This document shows positions 30,774-64,000 of a stretch of DNA of 64,000 bases, piece after piece; within the stretch, counting starts at the first letter, position 1, and each line of letters opens with the position of its first letter. The position numbers and the translations under genes were made by a program. The notes beneath the pieces were generated by a model. The model saw nothing but the letters and a program-made list of their open reading frames with translations. It was not told where the DNA came from and searched no databases. The DNA is from Antedon mediterranea (Eukaryota > Echinodermata > Crinoidea > Comatulida > Antedonidae). Where the stretch lies: contig NC_092676.1 in the NCBI RefSeq assembly GCF_964355755.1, positions 26,456,288-26,520,287 of the forward strand. Direction: 5' to 3'.

Positions 30774-35721
<4,948 letters not shown>

Positions 35722-42495: not shown

Positions 42496-42882
42496 GCCAC
42501 AAAGGGAGTTATAATCTGAAAGTAGCAACGAAAACATTTTTTTCGGGGTAAATACTCAGCCTAAAAAATGTAAATTTCAGAAAAAAGTTCTAAATACTCA
42601 CAAATCCTTTTTGAATAAACGACGTATTTTAAACTTTTTTTTATGTTCAACCTTGTATATAACAAGGTCCGATTTTTCCTTGCCACAAAGGGAGTTACTT
42701 ACAATCTCAAAGTAGCAACAAAAACAATTTTTTGCAAAGTAAATACTCAGCCTAAAAAATGTAAATTTCAGAAAAAAAGTTCTAAATACTCACAAATCCT
42801 TCTTAAGACTTTTTGAATAAACGACTTATTTTAGACTTTTTTTTATGTTCAACCTTGTATATGACAAGGTCCGATTTTTCCC
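42496..42882 (-). repeat. Tandem duplication (about 190 bp) of the gene A 3' end
   Basis: Copy 2 (42682-42882) contains the stop and last roughly 26 codons of gene A plus flank. Copy 1 (42496-42680) lies just downstream. Copy 1 keeps the frame KSDLVIYKVEHKKK followed by a slightly different tail (FKIRRLFKKDL) and a stop. Confidence 0.85.
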
Positions 42883-45511
42883 GGCCAAGTGCCTTATTAA
42901 TGACGGTAACAAACTTGTCCTGTAACTCCGATGGAAAATTCACAAGGTACGGCGGCAGAGACGAGACAGACATGGACTCGCTCAAGCATATCGGAATGAA
43001 ACGTTTGTTCTGCTTGCCATTTTCCTTGAACTCGCTATCCAGCAAGCAATTGATAAATCTAGAAAACACAATAAACAATTATTGAACATTTACTTAAAAT
43101 AGGGTGTTAATATGATAGTCGGCAAGGTTGGCAGGCTTTGATAAAAATTAATTTAGTATCTTACTGAATATTCATGAGAGCCTTCGACTGATCGTGTCCT
43201 TTTAATTCACGCATGTAATCTTCGCACAGCAAACACAAAATGTAATCACACTATAAAAAATGACAAAGAAATTAAATATAATTATTAAATTAACCCATAA
43301 TTATGTACCTTTTATTAATGTTTGTCTTTAGTTATTTAAAATGGTAACATGTGACAAACCAAAAGTTTCTGCATGTCGCTTTATACCTGGATAAACCAAC
43401 AATAACCTAGTATTCTCACAGAGTGGAGCACCAAAATTCGAATATATATAAATAATTAAACACCCCTATCAGAAAATGGCACACATCATCATATATGTAT
43501 CCTAATTGTAGCACTCTTCTCTGATAGAAACAAGCCAATGTTGGTTTATCTGAGTAAGCTAGATTTCAAATGGTGTGTACAACATACGTTTTCAATGCCC
43601 TTTTTCAGCATGTTTTGAAAATCTTCTTTTGTGGTATGTGTTTTATCTTGCTGTACAACTGAGCTTTTGACGTCCGTCAACACGCAGTATCCCTCCTCTT
43701 TTAAAGCCTTGTGGATCCGTGGGATATACTTGCTGCAGTCAGCCGAATATGTAATAAACACAGTACCTTGGTATACTGAAATAATTTCATTAAGACTTAC
43801 ATATCCATAACAAGATAAATAAACTGTAATTCATATGCATACAACAGCCAAAGACTCGCTAATTACATGAAAAATAAATTTATCTTTTTTATCATGCAAT
43901 ATAAATAAAGTCTTGTTATACAGGTCAGGATTGAACCCTAGACCTTGGGCTTGGAAGGCATGTTAATCACCAAGCTACCACATTATATAACAATCTATTT
44001 ACCTGGTTCAACTGAACGAAGGCCTTCTCCCCTGTAATGATAGACATTATGTTCGATTGAGTTTGATTGTGCTGGTACTTCATGGGTTGGTGGCGACCTT
44101 AGTGCATTTTGGTTTGAAGATGGCCAAGTCCTAATTGTATTAGAGCTCAACCTATCATTCATTTTAGGCCAAGTCAAGAACTGGTTTGAACCACAACTGT
44201 TATCTGTTACCTTGTCCAAAAACGTTGACTGTGTCTGCGGGTCGTTTCGTCTTGGAGAAGACTCTGAATGTGGGTTGGTAGGTCTGGAAGCGTCTTGAGA
44301 ACTTGTCCGACTCCATGAGGGCGCTGCACATGGATTGGCAGACTCGCCTCCAGTTAGAGAAGACATATGTTGGTTTTTTGTTAAGTCTACTGAGCAGACA
44401 TTACTGGTAAAACTTAAACTGCTTTCTGTGTACAAGTTAGGCCTATAATGAGGCGTGTTCATATAGCTGCTTTCACTCGTGCGATCTGTGGAGCCATCTA
44501 GTATCTTTGGAGACCTGTTGAAATTCATAGGTTGTACACTCAGCCAAGAACTAGAACCTGGACCAGGTAATGCTTGCCAATCCATTGGCTGTGCAGGGGG
44601 TTCCATACTGGGTCTATGACTCTGCTTAGAAGCATGACCCAGTAAACCGCCTAAAAAGAATCGCATTCATTAGTTTTTATTGCACAGAAAGAGAGGCATA
44701 ACTAATGGGATACTATGACCTACTATTGTACCTCGATCCAGTGACAGATCTAGCAGGGGCCCCCTGGTCTCCAGTCATCAATGGACCCGCTTTGGAGCAA
44801 ACCGACTGGATCTGCCCCTGCTATCGTAAACACATTACCAGAACAGCATAATTTGATTTTTAATCAACATTAATTCATAAGTGAGTCTAGCCCCAGTGGT
44901 AAAGGCGAATGCTTCGTTTTCCGTACCTAAAGAGCCAACAATATCAGCATAGGTTAGATGGCCTACTCGCTCCTAGTTCTGGTGGTGGAACAAGACTTCT
45001 TAGATAAGGACTATAAACCATAGGTTTGGTGTACACAGTTACAACCCATGTGCACCCAGTTCATCATTTGTAGGGGGTTACTCCGGTGAACTGATTCACA
45101 AAATAGTCCCTGTATAAAATAAGCTTACCATCCCACAATTCTTTAATTTCTTGAATAATATCATATCTGTTCATCGATTGTAAATGAACAATCAGATCCC
45201 TGACGGTAACAGAGCCTTGATTTTGCATCCACTCAGTCAGTACAATACTCGTCGGCGATGCCTTCTCTCTTTCAGCCTTATATTTAATAGCCTGTGGCAA
45301 AAGATAAACAGGTTTAGTAAATGTAGTTATTGCAGAAGAAATAATTTGACATTGCTCCAAATAAAAAGCATTATTAATATACCTTTGAATCAAAATGACT
45401 TGTTCCATTGCAGTGGTATGCCAGAACTGTCCAGTCTCCGGTGGTCTCTAACTTTGAACCAATTTTGATCACAGCCTGTGGCGAGAGTTTTTTTATTTCT
45501 ATATCATCCAT
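42803..45511 (-). CDS. DEATH-SEFIR adaptor, Act1/CIKS-like (gene A), complete, 6 coding exons
   Basis: Exons (minus): 45383-45511, 45129-45291, 44003-44650, 43588-43775, 43165-43250 and 42803-43058; 1470 nt, 489 aa. Residues 1-97 form a DEATH-type fold resembling the MyD88 death domain: LSPQAVIKIGSKLE, then SPTSIVLTEWMQNQGSVTVR and DLIVHLQSMNRYDIIQEI. Residues 98-313 are a low-complexity Ser/Pro/Asn linker carried on one 648-nt exon. The SEFIR domain starts near 317 with box 1 VFITYSADC, continues through box 2 CDYILCLLCEDYMRELKG, and reaches FKENGKQNKRFIPI, as in TRAF3IP2. A basic tail (HKKKSKISRLFKK) follows. No membrane segment or signal peptide is seen, so it is a cytosolic adaptor rather than an IL-17 receptor. 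SEFIR domains pair IL-17 receptors with Act1; a DEATH domain would allow Toll/IL-1-like partners. An untranslated exon border lies just upstream (acceptor at 45525/45526). Function is inferred from domains. Confidence 0.85.
43920..43985 (-). mobile_element. tRNA-derived SINE fragment, gene A intron 3
   Basis: On minus: GTGGTAGCTTGGTGATTAAC (A-box region), CCTTCCAAGCCCAAGGT, then B-box GGTTCAATCCT. It lies just 3' of the linker exon donor (44003). Confidence 0.65.
44884..45116 (+). mobile_element. tRNA-derived SINE, gene A intron 2, abutting the exon 2 donor
   Basis: Head CCCCAGTGGTAAAGGCGAAT, then the same body as at 35205 (TTCTGGTGGTGGAACAAGAC, AAGGACTATAAACCATAGGT). The 3' end (ACAAAATAGTCCCTGTAT) stops about 13 nt from the donor of exon 2 (45129). 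Confidence 0.68.
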
Positions 45512-46470
45512 GTCTGTTCAAAAATCTGAAAATAACAATAAAAATTACTATGAGACTCTCTGGGTTCAATGAATCAATATGCACTATTCAGGCTTTGTTA
45601 TTTACCCTTGAAGTAAGTTGGTGACCAACCCAGCAATATTAACTATAATTAGGCATGAAAACAACTTTTACTCTGCGCATTTAAAGCCCACTTGACGTTT
45701 CCCTAGATGATGGTGGTTTGTGAGGATGCTCCCAATTGAGGGCATGCATGGACTGTACCATTAATGAAGAGCAGTGTTTAATAAATTTTCTATCGGTTTA
45801 TCCAAGTAAGCTAGGCACAAAATAGACTGTATAAAAAGAATGTACAAAACTAATTTGGTGTTTACTGAAATCATACTTCCAACGATATGCTAATTTGACA
45901 TGACGTATAACGCAATACATGGTTGGTTTTAGAACTTTCATGTATTTCCAATGCACGGCAAACAAACCATCACACAATAGTCTGTGCTGACTTCTGATTG
46001 GTCAAGTGACGACAAATCATTTTTTATGTCCCCTAAAAATGCATGTGACGAAATCTAAGCATTATGAATATGATTATGAATGCGAATATTTGTTACTATG
46101 TTATTTTGTTCCAAAGAACTAATTATTGTCGTTCATACATCTAAACTCACTAGTGTATCTATGATTTTGTATCTGGATCTCTTTGCGCAATTTCAATCAA
46201 ATAGTGATGCTGCAACATTTGTGTTAAAAACAATAAAATGAACGCCTACATGACCTAGTATTTAAAAAGGCACAACAACAACCAATCAAGAAAAGCAAGG
46301 CAAAAAGGCCTTCTTTATAGCTTACTATTATCTAATATACGGTGCCTAAAAGGCCCTCTATATTTAGTAGCAGCAGGCCTAGCCTCCTAGGTCTAGCTTT
46401 TTGTTTGATGTCTATTATAATTTAGTTGGCTTATTTATACTAGGAAAAAAACATTTATTTATTCATTACC

Positions 46471-46850
46471 TTATTATTTATGAGCCACATGCAGAGAGAG
46501 TGTCATGATACTATACGAATGTTAACTAGCCTAGCCCATAGTATAGGGCCCGTTTCGACTTATTAACCCTTTAGGCCTTGTTGCTCTTCTTTTTCTACTT
46601 CTCTACTGAACGAACGGAGAGCAGTTATGGTGCGGTATGTGTTCACACGATTAAGTATTTCGTTCAACCAAAAAGGTTCCAACTTCCGGGTGTGATTGCA
46701 ATGTTATTGTTAGTTTCTGGGTTTTGATTGGCAGAACACTACCACATGATCAGTAAACTGAGTGCGCAATCAACCGTACCAAGTTCAGTTCACACACACA
46801 CACCACCACCATCAATTAAACGTAAACAGCGCGATGGATGACGGACTCAA
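46471..46850. promoter_or_regulatory. Probable divergent promoter region between SEFIR genes A and B
   Basis: Both start codons are preceded closely by splice acceptors (45526 on minus for A; about 47249 on plus for B), so each has an upstream non-coding exon. Good donor sites exist at about 46470 (minus, ...AATAAG|GTAATG) and 46922 (plus, ...AAGTG|GTGAGT). That places both transcription starts in this short interval. It is richer in CpG than its surroundings and contains a CCACATGATCAG block and CA repeats. The exact starts are not visible. Confidence 0.45.
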
Positions 46851-47265
46851 TTTTGCACGGGTGTTGCTTTTTTATTAGAATAAAATTGCAATATTAGTGG
46901 TAAAATATGGGGTTTAACAAGTGGTGAGTAAACATAAATATAATATACAAGAGTATGTTTTGTTTAGCTAGGCCTAGACTTCACTAAGACAAATGGATCT
47001 CCAGACAAACAGAGACAGGCTCAGTTTAGGACTAGGTAGGTAGGTAGTCGCTGTAAATGAAGGTGGTATACATTTTTAAATATGTTTCAATTTACTATGA
47101 GTATATTCGGGCCTCTTTTTAGATAGTGAAAGTAGAGAAAGATATTCCTACAATTTCATTAAAACAATTTTTTTTTAAAATTATAATATTTTAGGCTAGG
47201 CTAGCCCATTATTTTTATTAAAGAATGTGTCTAAATTTTTTTGTTCAGATACCGACGATTAAATT

Positions 47266-50200
47266 ATGGAAGATATACCGATAGATGACTTAAGCCCACT
47301 GGCAATGCAAGAATTGTCAAAACACCTTGACAGGGCAGAGTGCGAAGATAAAACATGGCGGGAATTTGCTGGTTATGCCTATGGCGCTACCTTTGACAAT
47401 ATTCTGGTAAATAAAATAATTATATATTATTATATAGGAATAACTGATGTTTTTACTTGATGGAAGAATTCAAATTCACAGTATCTTATAAATGTAATCA
47501 GTATCACAATGTATTTCATGAAATAAAATGACAAAAAAAGTTTACCATTTAAAGTCTTAAAGTCTCCCAACTTTTTTAAATTCTCTTCCTTTAGATATCC
47601 GACTTGCTTAAAGCCTGTTTTCCTGTCGACGTTGAGTTTAAAATCGTTAAAGTTGAAAATAAAATAGCGATGACGATGATCGAGTCGGACCGCTAATATT
47701 TACACATTTTTACGCGATCGTTCATAGTTTCTTGGTTCTCTCGAGCGTTGCTGGGACACGCGGACGTGAGTGTTGCAAAACTAAGGCCGGCCACGCGCAC
47801 CCGGGACCGCGTGAAAATTGAAAAAGTTACGGGTTTTGATGCTTAAACCCAGCCTAGGACATGCTTTCGTTGATATCTTAATCTAGGCTTACACTAAAGA
47901 CAAACATTAAATTTAATTGGTTTAATATTATAATTTAATTTGACTTACACTTGTTTTTTTTAAATATCAGACCTTAAAAGTGTACAAAAAAGGTGAAAAA
48001 CATCGTCGCGTTGTAAACATTCAGGAATTGTCAGCGCGTACCTTTTTTTCACAAACTGCAATGACGTAATTTGTGGACCATTTGATTGGTCAGTTTTAAC
48101 GATCGTAACGATCGTAATCGTTAAAGTTGAATCGAGTTCAACTTTAACGATTTAAGATTTTAACGATTTTCAACGTTAATTTTTACCCCCTTTTCCTGTT
48201 AAATCGTTGAATATGTCAACTCAACGCAACTCAACGTAACTTAACGTCGACAGGAAAACAGGCTTTAGCTTACTGTTCCTTCAAATTTTTGCTGAAGAAC
48301 CATCTTTTGTTTTGCTTCCTTTTTCCTATCTTTTCTTCTGATATGGCCAATTTAATTTAATTCATTTAATTTTTTATTAATTTTTTATTTATTTATATTT
48401 ATTTTATTTATTTTATTTTTAAACTAATTTGTACTTTATTTTATCTTTAAAATTCTATTTATTTTGATTCAAATTTTTGTTACATGTTTATGTCTCGTCA
48501 TGTTGTATTTTTGTGGGGGTCTTGAATGATCAGCTTTGGCTGGATGGACCACCCTCGTAAAATATTGTTGAAATAAATAAATAAATTGAAGCGATTTTAT
48601 AAATTAAAACAAAAATAATGAATTTGAATTTTTATGAAATCATTTTTGTCAGTTACATTTGGTTGAGTGAGTCTTACAAATTTATTATTCAATGTTCAAT
48701 TCGTAGAAAATTTCAATAGATAATTGCTTTAAATACCACAATACTTAGTCACCTCCTAAATGACAGCAGTACACTATTGTTAAGTGGGTAATATAATAAT
48801 ATAACAATATATCAAAATCAGTTTGTACTGTACCTAATAGTATAATTTTTATTTTTATTTATAAATAAATAGTTTATAACTTAACTTATTATCCCTTGAA
48901 ATTATATATTCATTTAATGAAATGAAATTCATACTTAAATTGCCCTTTTGGAGTTAAAGTTAATAGACATTTTTCTATTAAAAATTAAATCTTTTGTTGC
49001 GAAATTGGTTACACTAATTCTAAAAAATCATCTTTTATGTGAAGTATGTTTTCTTGAATGTACTTACAAATATTAGAGACAAACAGTAGATAACATACAC
49101 AGTACATTTTTTAGAGTTCTGACATACAGGTAGTTGGAAAACAATTTTTATTTAGTTTACGGAAAACAACTTGATTAATCGACCATGAATTACACAACCA
49201 TGATTCTTGCACTTACAGTTACACTTACAAAAATAGATGAAGTTGAACTTTAAACCAACAAACAAAAGCTAACAGACAAACCATGCATTAGTATTCATGA
49301 GACGCATTCAATCAACTGGAACTGAAAAATCAAAGATTTCCGTTGTATAAACAATTCCGGATTTAAAGGAAGACTTTAATTGTCTATCCGCAACTAGCTG
49401 ATAATAAGTCTTAATTTATCTGACAATTATGTAGTAAATCTGTCATTAAATTCTGTCTACATGTTACCTGTATGCATTTCTCTGCTTTAAAAGCATACAG
49501 AGTTCATTAACAGTTATTTCTCTATTTTAAAAGCCGTTATAACTGAAACGCAGTATTTTCAGTGAGTCCAACATACAGTTCAAGTTATTTTACATTACCG
49601 TGTATAGTGTATCCTAGAAAATTGTTCCCAAATCCCGAAACAGGGGGAGTGCAAACATAATAATATTAATACTCTGTAAAAAATAGATATCAAAAAAGTA
49701 GTTCATAATCTCGTTTTAGCTGTCAAAAGACGAGCGCACACCTAACGCTATCCCCCCCCCCCTCCCCCCAAAAAAAACAGAATTATAAATGTATACTGTC
49801 GTTTAAAATAGTACTGTTGCTGTACTGTATGTCATTTGATTTAGTTTTTGGTAATTGGAAGGGGAGCAGAATTACTGTTTACTTTACTTTTTACTTTATT
49901 CATTTAGCAATACATTTTAAATACATAAAGAATTAATACAAAAAATTTGGATTTAAAAAAGAATGAAATCAAAGTGAATGGATGCAAGGACGACGCATAA
50001 AATCAACAAGTCAATTTATTTCTAATTTCCATTGTTAATAATAAAGTAAACACTCAACTCCCCCAAAACCAGACCGACCAAATTGTCTAGTTATCAGTTG
50101 GAGAATTATGGGGGATTTGAACCATAACCACACAAACTTTTCTTTTTTTCAGGAGATTGAAAGTAAACCGTCTTCACCGACCTCGATTGTGTTTGATAAA

Positions 50201-53200
50201 TGGCGTGATTTTCATTCTGATATAACAACTGGTCATCTTATTAAAATTCTGAAGAAAATTGGATGTGTTCGTGCAATTCATGGACTTCAAAGATTATATC
50301 AAGGTAAAAAAAATACACTAATCATGTCAATATATCCACAAAAGAAGCTGCAGGGATCGCAACCCAAATCAATCAGAATAACCAAGAAACTGATTGAGCT
50401 GGTTGAAAACGGCTTGTTGTATGTTTTTTACACTAATCCGTATCAAGATCTGGACCTACTGTATACAGCTATAAATCATTAGTAGTTACATATAGTATAT
50501 TGTCTTTTATGTGAAGAAAATATCACAATTTTCCTTTATCCTATGTTTCAATATTAATCAGTAAACAACTATTAATTTAAGTATTATAAGTATGTAACAA
50601 ATTTCAAACTTTATTTTTTTTTAAATGGAAAGTGCTTGATCTGATTATACTTTATATATAGCTGTACATTTACATTTTACTTCCGTTTTTTGATACTGTA
50701 CTGTATATACTTAAATTGCTTCCTCATACAGTCAGTAAATACTGAAATCTGACACTTTATTATGCCGATAATTTTAGCTATGTAAGCAAATAAAAATGTT
50801 AACAGCACAACTACAGGTGGTGTTTAGGTTTCATAGTATGGTAAGTTATTCTTCGTCTCACCAAATGTACATTTTGTGACTTTCTTAATGTTGTTTGAAG
50901 ATATAGTTATGATCAAAAGGAAAGTTATTAAGTAAAAAAAACATAACAATTTGTAAGTAGCTAGGTCAGAAATAAGGAGAGTGAAATGTCAAGATGTGTA
51001 TATAAATATATCCATGTTTTTGTTTTGTTTTTTTTTGGTTGCATAATTCATAATATTTTTCTAAGAGTAAATCTGTATACCGCATTTGTAGTTTTAAGGA
51101 AATAGAAACCAGTTTTTATACTATGGCCTTGGAATTTACAATAGTACAGTACTAGTATTTTTTATTTACTATTTTTTATATACCTATATACCAAATAGAC
51201 TACTGACTACAGAGTGGAATGAACCCTTCACTTTAGGATTAGAAAGCATGAGCCAAACTCAAGTTCCACTAGGTTACTGACTAGTACATTATGTACAGTT
51301 GCATGTTATTATGACGACATGTACAGTAATATTTAAATTTTATTTTTTAAATGTAGAAAAACAGTTGGGTGCACCGAGTAAGAATGCTATCACTCCGTCA
51401 ACCTCAACTTGTTCTTCACCAATCGCATCATTGTATTCTTCGGGTCAATCCTCTCAACCAATCACACCATCATCAAACTCGTATTCACCATCGACAAGTC
51501 TAAGTAGTTATTCCAGCATATATCAAGGTAAGTAATATTACATAAATTTATTAATAATATGCTATACTGCTATGTACATATACCTATTTCTCACCCAAAC
51601 AGTAGTGTAACGGCTATGAGCTCATTAAACCCAGGGGCCAGAGCTTAAGGGCCCCAGAGCATGATTAGTCCAATGCAACTACACAATGATGGAGGGCCCT
51701 TAGGAGTGCTAAACCAGGAGCCTTTTCCCACTGCGTTACGCCCCTACACTCGCGTGAGTGATAAAAGAACACCTGATAAGTAAATAAAAACAGTTGTAAC
51801 TGGACATAAACTTAAACATTTGTTTATCTTCTTTTATTAGATCCGACAATCTTATTGTCATACTCCAGTTCAATGTTGCATGACAGTCGGATAAATGATT
51901 TTACTGCTTGTCTTCAAAACAACAGTGTTTACAGAGTTCAACTCGACCAAATTAAAGCATCGGCTTGGAATATGAATGCAAAACAAGCACAGTTGTACGA
52001 AAAGTTTAAAGATGTGAGTAATAATCTGCTGCTCTTATATAATATCACCCTACAGAGGTTAAATTTATAAAAAAAATTGGTTTTAAAGCTCTGTCTACAC
52101 TATCAAACAAGTGTGATATGTCATCATGACATTTTTTGTCACAAAGTTTGATAGTGTAGACAAGCCTTAGGTAAGTTTTGAAAATAAGCAAATATTGTTG
52201 TCTATTTTTTTTTCTTTGATGTCGAGGTTCATTTCTATGACAAAACGAATTGTAAGTTTTTTACATTTTTGTCGACAACAGAAAAAACATTTTCGTTCAA
52301 ATAGTAAAAGTTAACTAACACAAGCTTTTTCGTATACTAAAACTAACTAAATTCTCAAAATATTCTGTTAAATGTTCAACGTCCAAATAAAATACTCCAA
52401 ATATTATATTAATATTTTACATGATGTACCACGAGTGTTTTTTATTTGGTATGTAAATAAATACAGGAAGTTCTATATTTTGTCAATAAATATTGAATCA
52501 TTTTATATGCATTTCATAGAATCAATCATAGAGATATTATCTCTATGAATCAATGCATAAAAGGATCCAACTTTCATTGGGGCTCATCCACAAAAACATT
52601 TTTAGGATCCTGTACAGATTTACAATAAGGGATCATCTCAATTTCTTTTGAATAACTGAAAAATGAATACATAATGAATTCACCATACTACTGTACTGTA
52701 CATTGAAAACCTATTGTATAAAATAATCCTGAAATATGGATTGTTGTTGATATGATCAACATCCTCAATCAGGGTTAGACATAATCCAATATTATTTCCT
52801 GTAGAATGACATCCTCTTTGTACTACTGTATAATTCTAAAGGTGTGATATGCCCAAATATGGTAGTGATGTGCCCAAATATGGTAGTGATGTGCTCAAAT
52901 ATGGTAGTAATATGACATCATCGTGTCCATATATGGTCATATCACATGTAACATAAAGTTTGATAGTGTAGACAGAGTTTTACTAGTTCACTGAAATTCA
53001 TTAATTGAAAAGTAAAAGTACTTTACACTGGCTAAACATAGCAGTTTTATTGAATATTTTAGCATGAATGAAATGGTAAATATGACAAATTTCAACACAA
53101 ATATTAAACTACTACCTACCCACCCACCACCCCCCGTCGCCCCCCCCCCCCCTTCCTGCCACAAACAATTAACGTACTGTTATCAATAGAAAATCAATTG

Positions 53201-54793
53201 TTAAAAATATACTACATTAATACAAGCTTATCATATCATAAGTGTATGTCAGTATAGTTCCTAATCAAAGGCACAGTAGTGTAAAGGTCAACATCCCCTT
53301 CTCCCACTTCCCACTTAAATAAATATGTTATCAATATTAAATGAGATGTTATATTTATTTTGATTTCCAGGCCGCTTTTGTTATCTGTTTAATCGATGAA
53401 GAATACGTAAAAGAAGCGCAAGGAATGAAACCAAGTACAGAATTGCACACAAATACAAGGTAATTTTTGGTAATTAGTTTTGGGACGGTCAGATAGCGAG
53501 ATGATTGTGACGGTTAGACCAACTAAGCAAATAATGTATGTAATGTACTTTGGTGATAAAGGCTAACGAGATAGTGAATGGATAAAAGGATTGTTGATGA
53601 CATGATGTGGAAAATCAAAAACGAATCTACTTATAAAGAGCATGACGTGAATGGCGGCACGTGTCACAGAACGTGAATTGGAATTTAATGATTGAGCACA
53701 GACAATGTGTTGGACTTTGACTTAACCAAACTTAAATGTTGAAATATTTGTTTTATTTTTTGAGTGTGTCTTTTGTCACGTTCCATACATTTTAATTACC
53801 TTCAATAAATATTCAGATATTACAGACCGATTCATCATGTCTTTGCATCTATACAAATAATTATTAATGTTGCAAGAGCAGCAATAAAAGATTTAAATTG
53901 GGCTATAAAAATACATTATCATTTATTATATTATGTTTAAAATAAGTAGTAGTTTATGTGAACACAAATCAGAAGTGGTGTTGGTATAGTGCTTACCAAT
54001 ATTTAACTATAACTTGAATACATAGATATTTATTGAACACTCCTATCACACAATGGTTTGTTCCATGAAGCCTGCCCCTAAATGGTGGTACTATACCACC
54101 AATCATTTCTTTTCGAGCCTTGGTAGATGTCTCGGAAGGTAAGCTAGGCACAAAATAGACTGTTTAACATGTTGCACATATTAACACATTATGATAAACA
54201 TTTATTTATCTCCTACTCTGCCTAATTTCAATTGATATTTAATAAAAGAAAATTAAATTTTATATTACAGGTTCATTAATGAGCTTATGGCAAAGGAATT
54301 TGCTGAGTCGAGCAACGTAAACTCGCGTTTTCTTCCGTATCTACTTGATGCGAGAATGTCAAAAGTGTTCCCGCCTTATTTGGACAATCCTCCTCTGGGA
54401 CCTTATGAACACTTTCAGGGAGTATTAGCCAAAGAATTGGAAAAGCTGCAGAAGTTGCAACTGGAAAAATTGCAGCTCGAGAATCACATGAGACTGAGAG
54501 AATTGAGGATAAAAGAATCACGTCAACTAAACATTAACAATGCGCACATTGACAATGTCCACGTTGATGACGCTGTTCGTTCAAACTCCGATTCAAGTTC
54601 TCAACCACTTTCCATAATAAGGAGAAACCGTAACTACACACCTGAAACGGAGCAGAGCAATAATGTTGCACATATCAGGACAAATTTGAAAAAGAATCGA
54701 AATTTTGACAAATTTCGAAAATTTATGGGAAATAAACGAAAACCGTGCAAGGCAACAGATACACCGTTAATAGTACACCTGAAAAAACGCTGA
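47266..54793 (+). CDS. DEATH-SEFIR adaptor, Act1/CIKS-like (gene B), complete, 6 coding exons
   Basis: Exons: 47266-47406, 50153-50303, 51357-51527, 51841-52013, 53371-53459 and 54271-54793; 1248 nt, 415 aa. The DEATH-like domain spans residues 1-98: LSPLAMQELSKHLDRAE, WREFAGYAYG, then SPTSIVFDKWRDF and HLIKILKKIGCVRAIHGLQ. The linker (98-154) is short and Ser/Thr/Pro-rich. The SEFIR domain runs from about 156 (TILLSYSSS) through box 2 AAFVICLIDEEYVKEAQG to FINELMAKEFAE and SRFLPYLLD. Unlike gene A it has a C-terminal extension of about 120 residues with a Leu/Glu/Lys heptad-like coiled coil (about 293-330) and a Lys/Arg-rich end. Exons 1+2 total 292 nt in both A and B, with the same intron phases, so they are paralogues. 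AATAAA lies at 54813-54818, about 20 nt after the stop. Introns hold several MITEs, making this the most transposon-laden gene here. Its SEFIR is more divergent than those of A and C. Confidence 0.82.
47611..48265. mobile_element. 655-bp DNA-transposon-derived element with AAGCCTGTTTTCCTGTCGAC ends, gene B intron 1
   Basis: Terminal inverted repeats AAGCCTGTTTTCCTGTCGAC GTT and its complement are bordered by TA on both sides. The interior contains further AACGATCGT palindromes and a GC-richer block at 47740-47820 that differs from the AT-rich surroundings. No transposase frame. A single right end of the same type lies near 6640-6656. Confidence 0.82.
48330..48590 (+). mobile_element. Probable LINE (CR1/L2-type) 3' end with (AAAT)n tail, gene B intron 1
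   Basis: ATGTCTCGTCATGTTGTATT, then TGATCAGCTTTGGCTGGATG GACCACCCTCGTAAAATATT, ending in AAATAAATAAATAAATTG, the usual layout of a CR1/L2-like 3' terminus. No reverse transcriptase is present. Confidence 0.5.
51600..51749. mobile_element. CAGTGGCGTAAC repeat family, copy 4, gene B intron 3
   Basis: Ends CAGTAGTGTAACGGCTATGA and CTGCGTTACGCC, with an internally shortened centre. It fills about half of the intron between exons 3 and 4. Confidence 0.78.
52086..52167. mobile_element. GCTCTGTCTACACTATCAAAC MITE, copy 8, minimal form, gene B intron 4
   Basis: Only 82 bp: both inverted ends (AAGCTCTGTCTACACTATCA and TTTGATAGTGTAGACAAGCC) and a short centre, flanked by TA. It begins about 70 nt after the exon 4 donor. 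Confidence 0.85.
52842..52982. mobile_element. GCTCTGTCTACACTATCAAAC MITE, copy 9, gene B intron 4, 5'-truncated
   Basis: Three tandem GTGCCCAAATATGGTAGTGAT units are followed by the right end AAAGTTTGATAGTGTAGACA GAG. The left end is absent. Confidence 0.78.
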
Positions 54794-56011
54794 TTCTTAT
54801 TCGGTGTAAAATAATAAAGTGCTGATTTTTACAATTGATGGGGGATTACATCATTGAGATATCAAATACATTTATTTCAACATTTTGAAGTAGAGAGGAG
54901 ATTGATCAGAATATTTGGCCTATTCTCTCATGTCCTTGTTACTGTTTTTGTAATAATTCCAGCATAAATATTAAACAATGAATAGGATATACTGTACTAG
55001 AATCTTATTTCACTGGTACATATTATGAAAATTACTGTATTTTTATATTTCCCTGAGAAAGAAATACTATGGTGAGGTGACACGAAATTATTCTCATAAA
55101 AGCAACTTCTAGTAAAAAAAAACCATATATTTAAACTCCATGGTGTTTTGTTTAAACACACATACAGGCACTAGATCATGACCTCCACCGTTAAATTGAA
55201 ATATGTGAGTTAAGAATCATGATAAACTGTAAATATTGAAATTAAAAAACCACAAATCATATCCTAATCTAACTGAAATCAAATATATTATTGTATTATT
55301 TGTAATATATTGTCAATTTTAATAGTCAAAACTACAATTACAAGTAATGATTTGTAGGGAGTTATGATTGAAAATTCATTAAACTTTAAAAAGGTATTGA
55401 AATGTCTATTAGATTGTTGTATTCTGTGTATGTTGTAGGCCTAGTAAAATGTTGTACAGGATTGATATTAGCCAAGGATTGTGAAGTAGATATGATCAGG
55501 AGAGCTAACCATGGAACTATAATATAGGATTATATATTATAGTTCCATGAGCTAACATACAATATTAATCTGTAAACAATTATTTAAACAAATGATTTCT
55601 TGTTAGCAGCCAAAATGGGGGTGGGGGGAGTGCTACCCCTGGATCTGCCCATGATGATCAACAAAAACCAGCACAGTTGAAAACCAAATATTGTTTGTAC
55701 ATAGTAGTATAGCGTGTATAGCTTTTATCATCCAGAACAAAGGATTTGGTTTGCGTCATTGACTGTTTGTCAAATGATATATAGATAACACTAGTGCAAT
55801 GGCCCTGGGTGCATACAGCTTTCTGCTATTTGTGTCTTGGAATTTCCAAAGGACAGATTTGTCATTTCCAATGCCTGAATGGTGCGACGCCTCCATTTTA
55901 GTTTCATTTTGGACATTTGTATGAAGGTAAGTTTATTGAATTTGATTTGAAGTTACTTCAAATTAAACCTCTTTGTGTATTGTGCTTAGTTAGATATTGT
56001 TTGCTTTATAG

Positions 56012-56091
56012 GATTCACAGGCTACAGGCAAACCGCTCAGTTTGAGATTGCTTCAAATTTCAAAGCAGAATTACTACATCACAAACGCAAG
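56012..56091 (+). other. Candidate upstream (5' UTR?) exon of SEFIR gene C
   Basis: The segment is bounded by an acceptor (TTTATAG|G) and a donor (CGCAAG|GTATTT). A second candidate exon ends at 55926 with a strong AAG|GTAAGT donor. Joined to 58053, the 56012 exon stays open in the gene C frame, but a TAG lies upstream with no intervening ATG. Another frame has an ATG near 55921 that would make a short overlapping upstream ORF. Only transcript data could confirm this. Confidence 0.3.
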
Positions 56092-56127
56092 GTATTTATG
56101 ACTTCTTGTAATTCTATATATAACATA

Positions 56128-56519
56128 TATAAACATCACAGGCACAGAATAAATTCTAAACCGCCCGGTAATATACTTAAATTAATTAATTAAAATTGAA
56201 ACAATAAAGATGAGGAAATCTGTGACCATGAGAAAAAGGCACCAAAACTGAGATTCGAACCTGGGACCTTGCGATGATATGCAGATATCCCAACCATTAG
56301 ACCACTGGGGGCTTTCATGGTATTGTTCAGATTTGAATGGACAGTGACTCTTTAACACTCTCCACATGTTATGGCGGAACAGCATTAGTCAATTGTATGC
56401 ATGCGCAACAGAGATCAAATTGATACGCCCTCATCTTTCAGTGTTTTATTCACGAAGCGGGATATTCAAAGAGATACTTTTATATCTATAAACATCACAG
56501 GCACAGAATAAATTCTAAA
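56128..56519 (-). mobile_element. tRNA-derived SINE between 33-bp direct repeats
   Basis: The block TATAAACATCACAGGCACAG AATAAATTCTAAA occurs at 56128-56160 and again at 56487-56519. Between them, on minus, a tRNA-like head GCCCCCAGTGGTCTAATGG (A-box) is followed by CCCAGGTTCGAATCTCAG (B-box). The tRNA fold is too degraded for a working tRNA gene. If the direct repeats are a target duplication they are unusually long. Confidence 0.6.
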
Positions 56520-57579
56520 TGTTGGTATATGTATATTGGCTAATGAATCTGTATAATAAAAACAAGAGAATCAATTTTTATATACAGGTATTATTTTTGT
56601 GGTTTGGTATGTTGCTACATTATTTTGAAATGTTGGGAGTGGTGGGGGAGATCTACTGTTTTACATATTATTTTATCCATCTATGGCATGGCATAAGTTA
56701 CTTTCTTTTTTTCCCTCCTACATTCATTTGCAGAATTGAAAATATATTTGTTCATAATCATGATAAAACAATTTCCGTTTTCGCCTAAATCAGTATATAT
56801 CAATTTATTTGTTGTTTTTTAATATAATTGAAAGATTATTTTGAATATAAATTAGAGTGGCCATCATAAACTAACCATTTTGTTATGTAAGGATTACCGA
56901 AATACCAATGTCTTTGTTACATTTAGCATGCTTTCAGTGGGTAAATACACTACAACCACAAGATAACCTTTAACCCATTGTATCTACATGTATTACTATT
57001 GTTAAATAAAATGATTTGCATATGAATTCTTTATTACCAGAAAAATGACAAGTCACAGTAATTGAAACAGTTTTGTATTATCAACTGAGGCTAGTCAGGC
57101 GTAAATTTAATGTATTTTAAACTTTACAAACAAACTTGGAATTAGTTACCGGTACTACAAATTCCTCCATGATATTTATTATGTTATTGTTACTGTTCTT
57201 GTAGCCGTCTTCTTCTGAAGACACGTGGCCGTCATTGACGGATACTTAATATCAGTTGACTTCACTGCTGGTGTACTCGAGATCTACGTTTATACCATTC
57301 TATAAACTTATTATTATGTAGTTTTATTGTTCTTATCGATCAAATAAATTTAAAAGCTATCTAGTAGACTTGCCCCAAGTCTGTATTATCTTTTTTTTTA
57401 TTTATTTGTTTTTATTTCGACCGCGATTTTTGTCTGAAAATCCAAAATCAAGTAGTATACGTATGAAACGCCATATGTGCCAAAATATTTATCTTTTTAC
57501 TAATATTAAGACAAAACTCCGTCTGGAACCCAGACTAGCTATCTAGTAGCATAATGGGTCTTGGACTATTACCTACATA

Positions 57580-57679
57580 CAGTGGTGTAACAGCTATGAG
57601 CGCTCACTGGCTAAACCCCAGGGCCCAGAGGAAAAAACAGGCATTAAAATATGTCGAAAAGGCGTAGGGAGAGCCACTG
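57580..57679. mobile_element. CAGTGGCGTAAC repeat family, copy 5, shortened
   Basis: Left end CAGTGGTGTAACAGCTATGA and ATTAAAATATGTCGAAAAGG are recognisable. The right side is reduced to GAGAGCCACTG. Confidence 0.72.
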
Positions 57680-58058
57680 CCTACATACAGTTTTATTCTC
57701 CACATTCATAAAATAGAAATACTTGTAATATGAATTTCAATACTATACATAATAATGTATTACTATAACGATTAGTTCAGTATACCTTTTGTGTACCTAT
57801 TCACAAAACAAAAATTAAAGAGCAAATGTTTTGCCTAACTGAAAAAAAACTGAATGGAATGAGAACATGATTGATGAATGAAGAAGTGATAGATTGATGA
57901 ATGAAGGAATGACATTTAGCCATGAAAAGAAAAAACCTGACAATATTTGTTTACTAACTTTACACGTTGAACTTTGTACTATTACAGAAATATGTATAAT
58001 TGTACTGATATATTCCTTAGTGTGATCATATAAATTCTGTGCACTATTTCAGAGTGCA

Positions 58059-60968
58059 ATGGCTTTTGCTAATGGTTGGAGCAGTGGTGAAGGTACTGGT
58101 CATTGGCAGTATATGAGAGAAGAGGTTGCATCTGACGGTGATTTAGAGTACCAATATTCTGGTCTAGGACTTTGTTCAAATCCCTCTGCTGAGCAATTAA
58201 ATTTGCCTGATGGTATGTTTCTATTTAATATGTTTTTTTTCAATATTTCTAATGTATGGTATTTTACGTTATTAATTTTAAACTTTATAATGTTGGTTAC
58301 TGTATTTGTTACATAAATCATGAATGATTCCACCGAACTTTCAAGTTAAAATAACTATGGTGAGACACTTAATGAATAGGCAAACTCCCTTAAAATGTGA
58401 CATGTTACTGTAGTTATAGATCATGGTAGGATGCCAGTGGAAACTTCAGACATTGAATCTGTTCCTGGAAGCTTGTCAAGTAGGCGGTATTACGGAGAAC
58501 TAGAAAACAGGTTCTATGGAAGATTTCCACAAGAAAGTCTAGATAATCCTGTTGACGAACACCAATATCATCCTGTACAGTCATTCTGCCCAAATTGCAG
58601 AGGGGTTTTAAATAATGCCTATTTACCAGAAGACAACCTAGCATTTCAAAGAAACCAACGAGTAGTCAACCACCCGTCATCAGTTGCTAACTCACAACCT
58701 GGATACAATCAAAGAGGACCCAGAACAAAGAGGCAAAAGAGCAGGTTTCGTCCAAGACCAGGGTTGAATGCGGCGGCATCAAACCGAACATCCTCGACAA
58801 TAAGCAGCCTAGACGATAATACAGAAAGCATAACATCTTGCAGCAGTTGCTCGATACTGTCCTCAAAATATCCCAGTGCCGTGTCTCTCTCCCAAGACTC
58901 TCTGCTGCCTACTGATGCAGATAACTTAGTCTCAGGTTTGTCATATAGGCACACTGATAATGAACATAGTTATTTTACAACCTCAGAGAAGGAGAACTAC
59001 AAGTGTGAAGTTCCAAGGTACATATTCAAGTCATCAAGTCAACGATCTAGCAAGTCTAAAAAGTGTAAGTTACTTTCGAAATTAAATTGTACTGGCTAGG
59101 GACGGATACAGGATTTTTGTCAGGGTATAGCTACAATTGCTACTCACGATGACGAAAAGAGGTTGAGCATTCCTTTAGCCTAATCCTGGATCTTCCACTG
59201 GTGTTACTGTCACTCTTGGGTAATGTTTACGTAACAATCTATGGAGGCCTTAGTTCTACTATGGTAGCTGAATTATATTAGTTCTGAAAAGCAATATGCT
59301 TTGATCATCCTCCTGGGTGTACCATCAACATTTTATTTCCCCATGCAAACCTTCAAACAGTAGCTGAATTAACCAAAATATAATCAGTTAAAATTTAAAA
59401 TGCTGTATAGACACACGTTATTGAATAATTCTCATGGTGTTTTTAAATCACAGTTGACTGTTTAATAACCTTTGCATCAGATGCTATACACCAGATTAAA
59501 ACTGCTGCAAACTACATGAAAGCACGTGGTTACAAAGTGATGACGGACATACCCTCACCCAACATTGAACGTCATCAAGCAGTCGACGAGAAGGAAGTTA
59601 TGAGAAAACTGACAAGAGTTTTTCGCAAGGTACTTAATCAAAAAGTTGTTTGAAAATGAAATAAATATATCACATTTTAAGTACATTTAAGTGTTGACAT
59701 ATCAGTTTATATACAAGATGGTAGATGGTAAAAGTTACTAGGTTCAAAAGTTCAATACTAGATGGTAAACTAAGTTACTAGGTGTTGACCTAAACAGTTT
59801 AATTTAATGTGATAGTATGGTAAACTAAGTTACCATTGAAGATTAAGTTTCTAGTCTATGAAAACAGAAAAATGAAATATAGCATCATTAGGTCGGATTC
59901 AAATTATCTACTAAATAATTATATTTGTCTTTTAGTGTTCATACTTGCTGTGCTACTTGTCAAAAGAATACATTAAAGAAGTAACTGAAAGCAAGGCAAA
60001 AAACAAACACTTGCATATAAGGTATGGAAAATATTTCCTTATTCTAGTTGCTCAATGGTCAGTGACATAACGGCTATGAGAGCTCACTGGCTAAACCCAC
60101 CAATGCAACTACCAGGCGTTAGTGGGTCTCTTATGAGTGCTTGGCGCCACCCGCCTCCCCCTCCCCTGCATTACGCCACTGTCTATGTTCATTCTTTAGT
60201 AACTTAATCTATGACTAACCCGATTTTCATTTTAACTCAGTAGAAATGAAAAATAATATGAAAAAACATGGTATAACACACACTTTTTTATAAATACTCT
60301 TACAATTTAAACCTATTAATTTAGTAGTAGCAATATTGTTCACTTCAAATAATGTAAAAAATAAAGATACTTGCATTTTTTAAATGGCAGGTATCCAAGT
60401 ATCCTCCCTCCCGACAAGATCGAATCCTATGGCCACAAGTAAAGTGGTAAATAAATTCCATAAATAAAATACATCAGGCTCTGAGCAACTGGTGACAAAT
60501 AAAGGAGGTCCTTTCTCCATGGCTGCCTCACTGCTAATAAGCAGAACAAAAGACAACCAAGCCCACTGTGTGGTATTTTCCACCTGTTAATATGCAAATT
60601 AGGTCACTAACCTATCAGCAAAACTAAAACTTACTTGGAGTAAATTAAAAAGAACTTTTTGTCCATTTTCAGATGGCATTTTTATTACAAACAAATTCAA
60701 TTTTGTTTCTTGTAGTCTTTTTTGCCCTTTTTACGGATGGTATTTTAATGTTAAAAACAAATTCATTTTAACTTTTTTTGTTTTTCTTAGGGTTTTTGCA
60801 GATCTTATGGAAGATGAATTCAAAAGGAATGGTAAAATAAACAAAAGATTTCTTCCGATTTATGCAGACAAGAATTCTAAATTGAACAATTTGCCAGGCT
60901 ATTTAACAAGCTATCCAAAAAACCAACATTACATCTATCAGGAGTTATTTGGTGAAGCTTTAAGCTGA
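58059..60968 (+). CDS. SEFIR adaptor, Act1/CIKS-like (gene C), 5 coding exons; 5' end uncertain
   Basis: Exons: (58053)58059-58212, 58420-59064, 59454-59629, 59936-60021 and 60791-60968; 1239 nt, 412 aa from the ATG at 58059. Residues 1-266 are a Ser/Asn/Pro-rich region with no DEATH domain. They include PVETSD (57-62) and PQESLD (88-93), both fitting the TRAF6-binding consensus PxExx(acidic/aromatic), and a CPNC pair at 108-111. The SEFIR domain starts near 268: LITFASDAIHQIK, box 2 CSYLLCYLSKEYIKEVTE, then FADLMEDEFKRNGKINKRF. The 645-nt exon matches the 648-nt linker exon of gene A in size and phase, and the 86-nt SEFIR exon has the same length in both. The first exon begins at an acceptor (58052), so at least one upstream exon exists. 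A candidate (56012-56091) joins in frame but offers no start codon, so I take it as 5' UTR. AATAAA is at 61419-61424. Confidence 0.8.
60060..60181. mobile_element. CAGTGGCGTAAC repeat family, copy 6, gene C intron 4
   Basis: Ends CAGTGACATAACGGCTATGA and GCATTACGCCACTG. It begins about 40 nt after the 86-nt SEFIR exon donor. Confidence 0.78.
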
Positions 60969-62178
60969 AGTGAGATTGACAGGACTATGTTACTGCAGTA
61001 CATGACTATAAAGTGCTATGTGCATGCTATGTTTACTACAGCACACGTCTAAAGTACTATGTGCATGCTATGTTTACTACAGCACACGTCTAAACAGTAC
61101 TATGTGCATGCTATGTTTACTACAGCACACGTCTAAAGTACTATGTGCATGCTATGTTTACTACAGCACACGTCTAAACAGTACTATGTGCATGCTATGT
61201 TTACTACAGCACACGTCTAAAGTACTATGTGCATGCTATGTTTACTACAGCACACGTCTAAACAGTACTGTGGTATTTTACAACTGAAGAGTCTGAACTA
61301 ATAACAGTATATAAAAACAAAGTACTATTTTTTACAGTATAATTAGTCGAACATTGGACTGGTTATAAAATTGTTACAACTACTTGACCATTTGGGTTAT
61401 CATAACCTTTGACCCTACAATAAATCTAAAGATATCTATGCATTTTTTTTTAATGAAAATTCAGGTATAAAAAGATTGACAAAACCACAATGACTATAAA
61501 ACAAAGATTGCACACAAACAATAAGGTTTTGCTTTTTATTATCTAAATACAGTATTTACAATTAAGATTTAAAACACACCCGATAACTCTCTCAGCTGTA
61601 GGATTTGCTGACTTGGGTCTAAGCTTGTATCTCTTCAAATTGTGCGACATACAATTTGGTCTTCTAACATGGCAATTTACATAACAATTACCTCAAATGT
61701 TTGTTAGCATGATAGTGCTTACAAATTAAGTTATTCTGTATAATTCGGTGTTAATAGGTATATACTTATAGAACATGCCTATACGAATTCAAGAAAATGT
61801 GTTCATTGATAAATTCATAAATAAAAAAAAATAAAAATCTGTATTCTTTTAAGATAGGCCGAAATATCAACATGCACACTCTGCGTATCTGAGTGCTTTC
61901 ATCTGATTTATTCATTCATTTGCTGTACATGATGGTTTAATAAATAAATGACATGAAATATGAAAGAACGTACATTATTGAATATGTATTATTTTGTATG
62001 AATCTTCATGATTGTTCCCAAAACCAGTATATTATATTCAATAGAGGAAGTTTACCCCTTCAGCTTTCAAATTTTGTTCCTCGCTAGAATACAATTGTGT
62101 TGTAAGTCATACAAAATGTGTAAACAACAATTTTCTCTGAAAATTGCGTTGAGAAGTTAAAAGTATAATAATCTGCTT
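60969..62178. other. Convergent 3' UTRs of gene C and NOSIP
   Basis: This is non-coding. It holds the 84-bp-period minisatellite (61013-61270), the gene C poly(A) signal (61419-61424) and a minus-strand AATAAA candidate near 61537 for NOSIP. Nothing else is recognised. Confidence 0.6.
61013..61270. repeat. 84-bp higher-order tandem repeat (alternating 41- and 43-bp units), 3 dimers
   Basis: The base unit GTACTATGTGCATGCTATGT then TTACTACAGCACACGTCTAAA ends alternately without and with an added CA before the next GTAC. The two forms alternate strictly through six units, giving an 84-bp dimer. Because 84 is a multiple of three, a spurious long ORF results. It lies in the likely gene C 3' UTR. 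Confidence 0.92.
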
Positions 62179-63911
62179 TTATGATGCCATCATGACAGGG
62201 CGAGCCTTCTTTGCTGCCAACTCAACACCTGAGCTTGCAAATCCTGTTCCTCCCTGCAATATAATCATACATCAGTGTTGTAAGTTATACAATATGTAAA
62301 CATCATTTTTCTTGATATTTTAATCAGCTCAATTTTATAGTGTTTTATTCAGCCACTGATACCCACAACATTGTCATTTTTTCATTGCTTACTTTATTTT
62401 GTATCTCCATTGAGATCCAGCCACTGACACTCAAAGAATTGTCATTTTTCAGTAATTTGCCATGGATTTATATTAAACTTGTAAAAGAGGTAAGGATGAT
62501 TAATTTTGTGATTAAAAACATATATTACCCTTTTAAGTGTAATAATATCTGATTCTTCTAGTTTTTCTCCACTTTCTGGGTCCAACATGTCTTTCTTGAC
62601 CAATTTCTCATAGCACTCTTGTGTAACAACTTTACCACTAAAAGAAAATAACATGTTGTTCATTATGTATATATTATATATTTAAGCTCTTAGAGTTTGC
62701 GAATTTGTTTTTTCTTTTTCTGTTTGTAAGTAATTAGAGTTTTTTTGATATGGATGAAATAATTCCAAAATAAAAGAAATTCAATTATGCTGTGAGCAAA
62801 CTTAGGTGATCTTTTAAGCTTGCAGTTTTGCAATATTTGCTGGGTAAATTTATCTAGTATAGCTACGCAGCTAAGTAATTTAATTTAAAAAAACAATACC
62901 TTGGTTTTAAAACAACACATGGCACAGAGTTTGACAAAATGTCATGCGTCACTGCACATTTGTAGCGCACTTTCTTGGCAACCAGAGGTTGACTGTCTTT
63001 TTCGTCAGCAAGTGTAAAATTTACTGTTATCAAATCCTTCATTTTGATTGGCTTCTGGCTCATTGGACAATACACAGTTTTATCCTACAATAGAAAAAGT
63101 TCCAATTTTATTTTTGTAAGGGTATTAGATTTTACTGTCTGCTTACTGAATTACGATGTTATGTCTTGAGGTGGTTTTCTGAATGATTGTAAAATCAAGC
63201 GGTACTGGGTATGACCAACTAGCATTCTTGTCACCAACTAGCCATCCAGTCATAGAGGTACTGATGTAGCAGCCTATCTGTACGGCAACTATAAAATGTG
63301 ATCCGAGACATGACCCACCCTGACTTTTAGTTGATAGACGATTGAAAAATTTGTTATGAAGAGTTGTACTGTACATGGATGTTTAATGAAAGGCCCTACA
63401 TACTAGCCATATTAACAGTAAAGTTTGTTAGTATAAACAATTTTGAGTTAATAAGATACAAGGAAAAAAAGCAAAGAGACTATGGAGTGGCTATTCCTGA
63501 ATATACAATACTAAGTTTCGTAGTTGAAATTATAAATTGTAGGCGAGGTCAAAGGTCAAGCGCCTATAGCCTGCCACGTTTTGATATTCAATATTGGAAT
63601 AAGATAGAATAAGTGGTTGTTTGCTGTTCAGTTTTTAACATTTGAATGCCGCATTGGTGGGAGAGAAAAAGTTGTTTAAAAACATTTTAATACCTAATAT
63701 TGATGTTTCTCCTTACTTACTGGTTTCTTTAGTTTTGTTGCCGTTGCTTGTGGTGTTTGAGAAGGAATCCAAAAGCTGGGTAGTTGTTTTGATCTATCTG
63801 GCTGTACTGTACTAGTGCCTGGAACAGAGTCTACATCATTTTGTAACTTCTGCTTCTTGGCAGATGGTGCTTCAGTAAATGGGTTAATTGGCTTGCTAAC
63901 AATACTGCTTT
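62179..63911 (-). CDS. NOSIP: NOSIP (nitric oxide synthase-interacting protein), 3' part; 5' exons beyond window
   Basis: Four exons on minus: 63721-63911, 62900-63084, 62529-62637 and 62179-62253; the first begins in phase and continues outside the window. NOSIP is an E3 ubiquitin ligase with a split RING/U-box fold that binds eNOS/nNOS and also associates with the spliceosome. The visible half starts with a Lys-rich linker (PSAKKQKLQ), then the family block LPSFWIPSQTPQATATKL. The C-terminal U-box-like part follows: YCPMSQKPIKMKDL, YKCAVTHDILSNSVPCVVLK, GKVVTQECYEKLVKKDMLDP, and the conserved end GGTGFASSGV then KKARPVMMAS. Compared with human NOSIP (301 aa) this covers roughly the last 180 residues. 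Phases join without error, so it is intact as far as seen. It is tail-to-tail with SEFIR gene C, with about 1.2 kb between stops. Confidence 0.95.
62690..62790 (+). mobile_element. Non-LTR retrotransposon 3' tail, copy 2, NOSIP intron
   Basis: AGAGTTTGCGAATTTG ... GATATGGATGAAATAATTCC AAAATAAAAGAAATTCAATT, the same family as 10588-10662. Confidence 0.55.
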
Positions 63912-64000
63912 CTGTGGTTTAAATTAAGCAGAAACACATGATGATAAAGAATAAATAATATTTCATAAACTTCTTAGTTATCAAAATGTAACTCTTCAAT

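Follow-up and report, generated by a model that had tools for sequence, protein, structure and literature searches.

Contact between SEFIR domains brings Act1 to IL-17 receptors. ACT1 orthologues of most lineages carry a DEATH domain (DD), which amniotes have lost, and the DD-SEFIR arrangement has been likened to the DD-TIR arrangement of MyD88 (PMC7190641). In C. elegans, ACTL-1 forms complexes with IRAK and MALT-1, for which the authors proposed the role of the original IL-17 receptor signalling mode (PMC7190641), and DD-SEFIR proteins have also been noted in placozoans and in CIKS/CIKSL (PMC6321704). For echinoderms, a 2017 study reported that no genome of the phylum yielded an Act1 homologue and that sea urchin IL-17 receptors thus work without Act1 (PMC5457136); a later description of echinoderm Act1 was not found in the open-access literature. 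Here we describe three adjoining genes (A, B and C) of the crinoid Antedon mediterranea, located at 42803-60968 of the window, i.e. the whole stretch of 64,000 nucleotides that was analysed. They are very probably tandem-duplicated crinoid Act1/CIKS (TRAF3IP2) genes, of which A and B would signal via their DEATH domains, and C would signal via TRAF6 or act as a competitor. The DEATH-SEFIR combination is neither unusual nor new, being already published as the ancestral form of Act1 (PMC7190641, PMC6321704). New is the host, an echinoderm and crinoid; the third copy without DEATH is likewise of note, while the family is known and its mechanism largely so from relatives.

Gene models

We reassembled each gene one exon at a time from the raw sequence; A is encoded by the minus strand, the other two by the plus strand. 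Gene A (42803-45511) encodes a predicted DEATH-linker-SEFIR adaptor of 489 aa in six exons (45383-45511, 45129-45291, 44003-44650, 43588-43775, 43165-43250 and 42803-43058). Its DEATH domain (45129-45511) is formed by the first two exons, which are separated by a phase 0 intron; the linker exon (44003-44650, 648 nt) is rich in S, T, P, N, Q and G, and the SEFIR domain with a basic tail (42803-43775) occupies the last three exons, the middle one of 86 nt. Gene B (47266-54793) encodes a predicted protein of 415 aa, also in six exons (47266-47406, 50153-50303, 51357-51527, 51841-52013, 53371-53459 and 54271-54793), composed of a DEATH domain (47266-50303, the first two exons and again a phase 0 intron), a short linker and a SEFIR domain with a coiled and basic C-terminal extension (51841-54793, the last three exons, the middle one of 89 nt). 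Gene C (58059-60968) has five exons (58059-58212, 58420 (or 58414)-59064, 59454-59629, 59936-60021 and 60791-60968) and encodes a predicted linker-SEFIR adaptor of 412 aa without DEATH, in which the linker exon (58420-59064) measures 645 nt, or 651 nt with the second acceptor, and the SEFIR domain (59454-60968) was recognized by profile and tree.

All introns of A, B and C have GT-AG borders, and all three predicted frames are open to the stop codon. In line with the initial annotation, the exon start phases are identical in A and B (0,0,1,1,0,2) and the same in C once the first intron, which is absent there, is left out (0,1,1,0,2); C has one first exon in place of the two DEATH exons. Two intron positions within the SEFIR domain are common to the three genes, with first and second SEFIR exons of 188/86 nt in A, 173/89 nt in B and 176/86 nt in C, which confirms the annotated 86 nt exon of A and C. 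The predicted proteins contain no signal peptide and no membrane-type hydrophobic stretch (top 19-aa hydropathy 1.03, 0.89 and 0.67 for A, B and C, respectively), and they are therefore soluble adaptors, not receptors.

The models were built from genomic sequence alone and join exons that lie as much as 2.7 kb apart, so the cluster might in principle be an artefact of assembly by hand in which exons of different genes were wrongly joined. This is extremely improbable, as exon order, phases and the splitting of the SEFIR domain agree across three independent loci, the SEFIR profile aligns with Act1 end to end (2-142 of 147) over all three exons, and the DEATH profile matches run on over the exon border in both A and B.

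Other genes are also present in the window. Exons at 62442-63918 on the minus strand resemble nitric oxide synthase-interacting protein (the middle exon matches NOSIP in the PDB with E 5e-14), a Ras-family GTPase exon lies at 1687-2100 on the minus strand, and an exon of a tubulin-tyrosine-ligase-like protein lies at 32772-33011 on the plus strand.

Type of the SEFIR domain

Comparison with Pfam families bore out the annotated SEFIR domain for B but not for A and C. The SEFIR family (PF08357, cut-off 23 bits) was matched above cut-off only by B (30.6 bits), A reached 16 bits, and the assignment of A and C to the family thus rests on profile, pairwise scores and tree. The best score of A was against TIR_2 (38.7 bits, which passes), and the sole match of C, a weak one, was to the same family (15.5 bits). 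Since a DEATH-TIR build is that of MyD88, these scores would fit a reading in which A and C, perhaps together with B, are MyD88-like adaptors for Toll-like receptors. We regard this as very unlikely, because sister gene B exceeds the SEFIR cut-off and the profile and pairwise comparisons lead to Act1. A profile of the A, B and C SEFIR domains found human Act1 (9ot1) in the PDB with E 3.3e-8, the next match (E 0.43) being unrelated, and a profile of A and C with B left out found Act1 with E 1e-7. With either profile, no TIR chain was obtained from the PDB at E up to 10, and the three-gene profile brought up no IL-17R SEFIR chain either, in a collection that contains IL17RA, IL17RB and many TIR structures. 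In the control, a profile of the genome's own IL-17 receptor SEFIR exons matched IL17RA/RB with 137, 95 and 44 bits and Act1 with 25. Each of the three SEFIR domains scores 11-16 s.d. above shuffles against Act1 and 0.2-1.7 against IL17RA (for C, 15.7 and 1.2, respectively), and the motifs N-x-RF[IL]P and P-x-[YW]L are shared with Act1. A TIR domain closer to MyD88/TLR than to SEFIR, which would mark the MyD88 type, is present in none of the proteins, although A passes TIR_2, and none combines a receptor-type SEFIR with a membrane span as IL-17 receptors do.

Returning to the Act1-type assignment, the maximum-likelihood tree separates A, B, C and human Act1 from all receptors (99/98) and unites A, B and C to the exclusion of Act1 and the receptors (97/94), with the longest branch leading to B; as the tree represents known Act1 by a single sequence, from a vertebrate, it speaks to the family and not to the exact place within it. 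The three genes therefore do not belong to unrelated families. A profile-profile comparison of the A-C SEFIR set with the receptor SEFIR set gave no alignment. Judged by sequence, all three genes thus encode SEFIR domains of the Act1/CIKS type, closer to Act1 than to either TIR or the IL-17 receptors, and the annotated cluster of three adjoining Act1-like genes holds in profile, pairwise scores and tree alike. An exon-wise Pfam search of the genome missed this type of SEFIR domain; as the domain is split by introns and stays below the Pfam cut-off in two of the three genes, such genes could be overlooked.

DEATH domains, descent and copy number

The DEATH domains annotated in A and B only were both recovered by Pfam (PF00531, cut-off 22.6 bits) with 30.4 bits for A and 31.8 bits for B. 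Their nearest counterparts in the PDB are IRAK3 (a weak match, E 0.0055) and UNC5. A DEATH exon other than those of A and B was not found by tblastn or profile in the six frames of the window, so the idea that C has an overlooked DEATH exon further upstream was rejected, and the first exon of C bears no resemblance to the second DEATH exon, though the phases would suit. The predicted A and B proteins thus retain the ancestral DEATH-linker-SEFIR build, and C consists of linker and SEFIR only. Genome-wide there are at least 150 DEATH-domain exons, many in tandem arrays and mainly at 19-26 Mb of contig C3 and 12-14 Mb of contig C5 (G000:C3:19-26 Mb and C5:12-14 Mb); the death-domain repertoire of the genome is very large.

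Tandem duplication, as proposed in the initial annotation, is borne out. The SEFIR pairs A-B, A-C and B-C exceed shuffled sequences by 18-35 s.d., and the DEATH domains of A and B, compared with each other, do so by 13.7 s.d., values that exclude chance, and this similarity, together with equal phases and adjacency and in agreement with the grouping in the tree, identifies the predicted A, B and C proteins as one family that arose by duplication. Two of the exon lengths that had been cited for common descent proved less telling. The 292 nt of the DEATH exons is matched as the sum of two exons, but not by the exons singly (129+163 in A and 141+151 in B). The linker exons of A and C do agree in size (648 and 645 nt), but linker length was dismissed as a sign of duplication because the linkers are dissimilar: none of the similarity sought between A and C was detectable (170 of 1000 shuffles scored as well), the A linker has no detectable likeness to that of B either, and the alternative acceptor of C changes the length.

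The genome searched comprises 18 contigs and 354 Mb, and all family and protein matches fell on C1-C11 (lengths seen, 22-41 Mb), which suggests that the genome is organised in 11 large chromosomes. A tektin exon of this genome scores 290 bits with the sea urchin sperm protein (8snb), compared with 155 for mammalian ones. The peptide GLRFHKGAPF-amide, known from each of three crinoids studied (PMC9793003), is encoded a single time together with the expected Gly-Lys-Arg cleavage site, and a reversed-pattern control had no match; tektin and peptide thus point to an echinoderm and most likely a crinoid. Mitochondrial COX1 had no match in the nuclear contigs. Single-protein searches of the whole genome, exon by exon, found no fourth copy. 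The description of the locus as an expanded adaptor system is thus apt as regards its three copies, but the expansion is modest. Close to gene A, at 42531-42685, lies a partial duplicate (87-89% identical) of the tail of its last exon and the sequence just past it, ∼200 bases away, which looks like a decayed local duplication. Immediately after gene C, 60990-61290 is made up of a tandem repeat of ∼84 bases with sub-units of 43 and 41.

Signalling and comparison with known systems

Both ligand and receptor of the IL-17 system are present in the genome, as indicated by eight matches to IL-17 genes and four receptor-type SEFIR exons. Seven IL-17 exons are clustered in ∼51 kb (G000:C11:4191705-4242851) and the eighth is on C5. 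Two of the receptor-type SEFIR exons, G000:C9:1055032-1055466 and 1087677-1088111, are near-identical and 33 kb apart, the product of a recent receptor duplication. Genome searches for MALT1_Ig and TRAF6_Z2 gave no matches, and as their controls likewise gave none, these searches are uninformative on presence.

Beyond the domain assignments, we infer each step of the pathway, including the partners of A, B and C. An IL-17 dimer would bind its receptor, and the cytoplasmic SEFIR of the receptor would recruit A, B or C through SEFIR-SEFIR contact. The DEATH domain of A or B would then gather IRAK-type death-domain proteins in a Myddosome-like assembly, which would lead via TRAF6 to NF-kappaB. 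The link from DEATH-SEFIR proteins to death-domain signalling drawn in the initial annotation is plausible in this respect, with the ACTL-1-IRAK-MALT-1 complex of C. elegans as a precedent. C, which does not have the DEATH route, may bind TRAF6 directly, like the DEATH-less Act1 of amniotes, by two TRAF6-type PxExxD motifs in its linker (residues 57 and 88; P 0.052 against shuffles, barely beyond chance); such motifs number zero in B and one in A, the latter within the SEFIR fold. Alternatively, C might damp the signal by competing at the receptor with A and B. The motifs hint that C may call TRAF6 directly, but C could equally be a brake.

A related possibility is that C, and possibly B with its short linker, has no signalling output and serves as a decoy or regulator, or that it is a copy in decay. 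The DEATH domain missing from C, linkers diverged past recognition and the long branch of B would be in keeping with this, but frames and splice sites are intact in all three genes, core SEFIR residues are preserved in each of them, and amniote Act1 functions without DEATH (PMC7190641), so we consider this reading rather doubtful. On the favoured interpretation of the cluster as working Act1 genes, C is a second, independent DEATH-less Act1 and useful for learning what DEATH contributes.

As regards the history of the cluster, we lean towards an echinoderm ancestor with a DEATH-SEFIR Act1, which crinoids kept and multiplied to a cluster with division of labour, two copies with DEATH and one that lost it independently of amniotes. 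Urchins would have lost the gene, or it would have gone undetected there, with a SEFIR spread over three exons and below the Pfam cut-off. Genes of this kind may already be present in automatic annotations of crinoid or sea star genomes, and A, B and C can serve as an exon-aware query to retest the absence claimed for urchins, sea stars and sea cucumbers.

When the three predicted proteins are compared with known adaptors, they resemble vertebrate Act1/CIKS as cytoplasmic proteins with a C-terminal SEFIR domain of the same type (9ot1) after a long low-complexity linker, the linkers themselves not being comparable; A and B have a DEATH domain, whereas mammalian Act1 does not. The DEATH-SEFIR order of A and B is that of C. 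elegans ACTL-1, CIKSL and other non-amniote DD-SEFIR Act1 proteins, i.e. the common non-amniote form, from which the crinoid differs, as compared by description, in having three tandem copies, one of them without DEATH. With MyD88, A and B share an N-terminal DEATH domain followed by a domain of the TIR/SEFIR superfamily and, by analogy, likely also the logic of a receptor domain for input and a death-domain assembly for output, but their second domain is an Act1-type SEFIR and not a TIR. The sea urchin, an echinoderm like the crinoid, also possesses both IL-17 ligands and SEFIR receptors, and the SEFIR of SpIL17R2 is reported to be encoded by its last exon (PMC5457136), just as the crinoid receptor SEFIRs are single-exon. 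The three genes of this crinoid genome contradict the published absence of Act1 homologues from the echinoderm genomes (PMC5457136).
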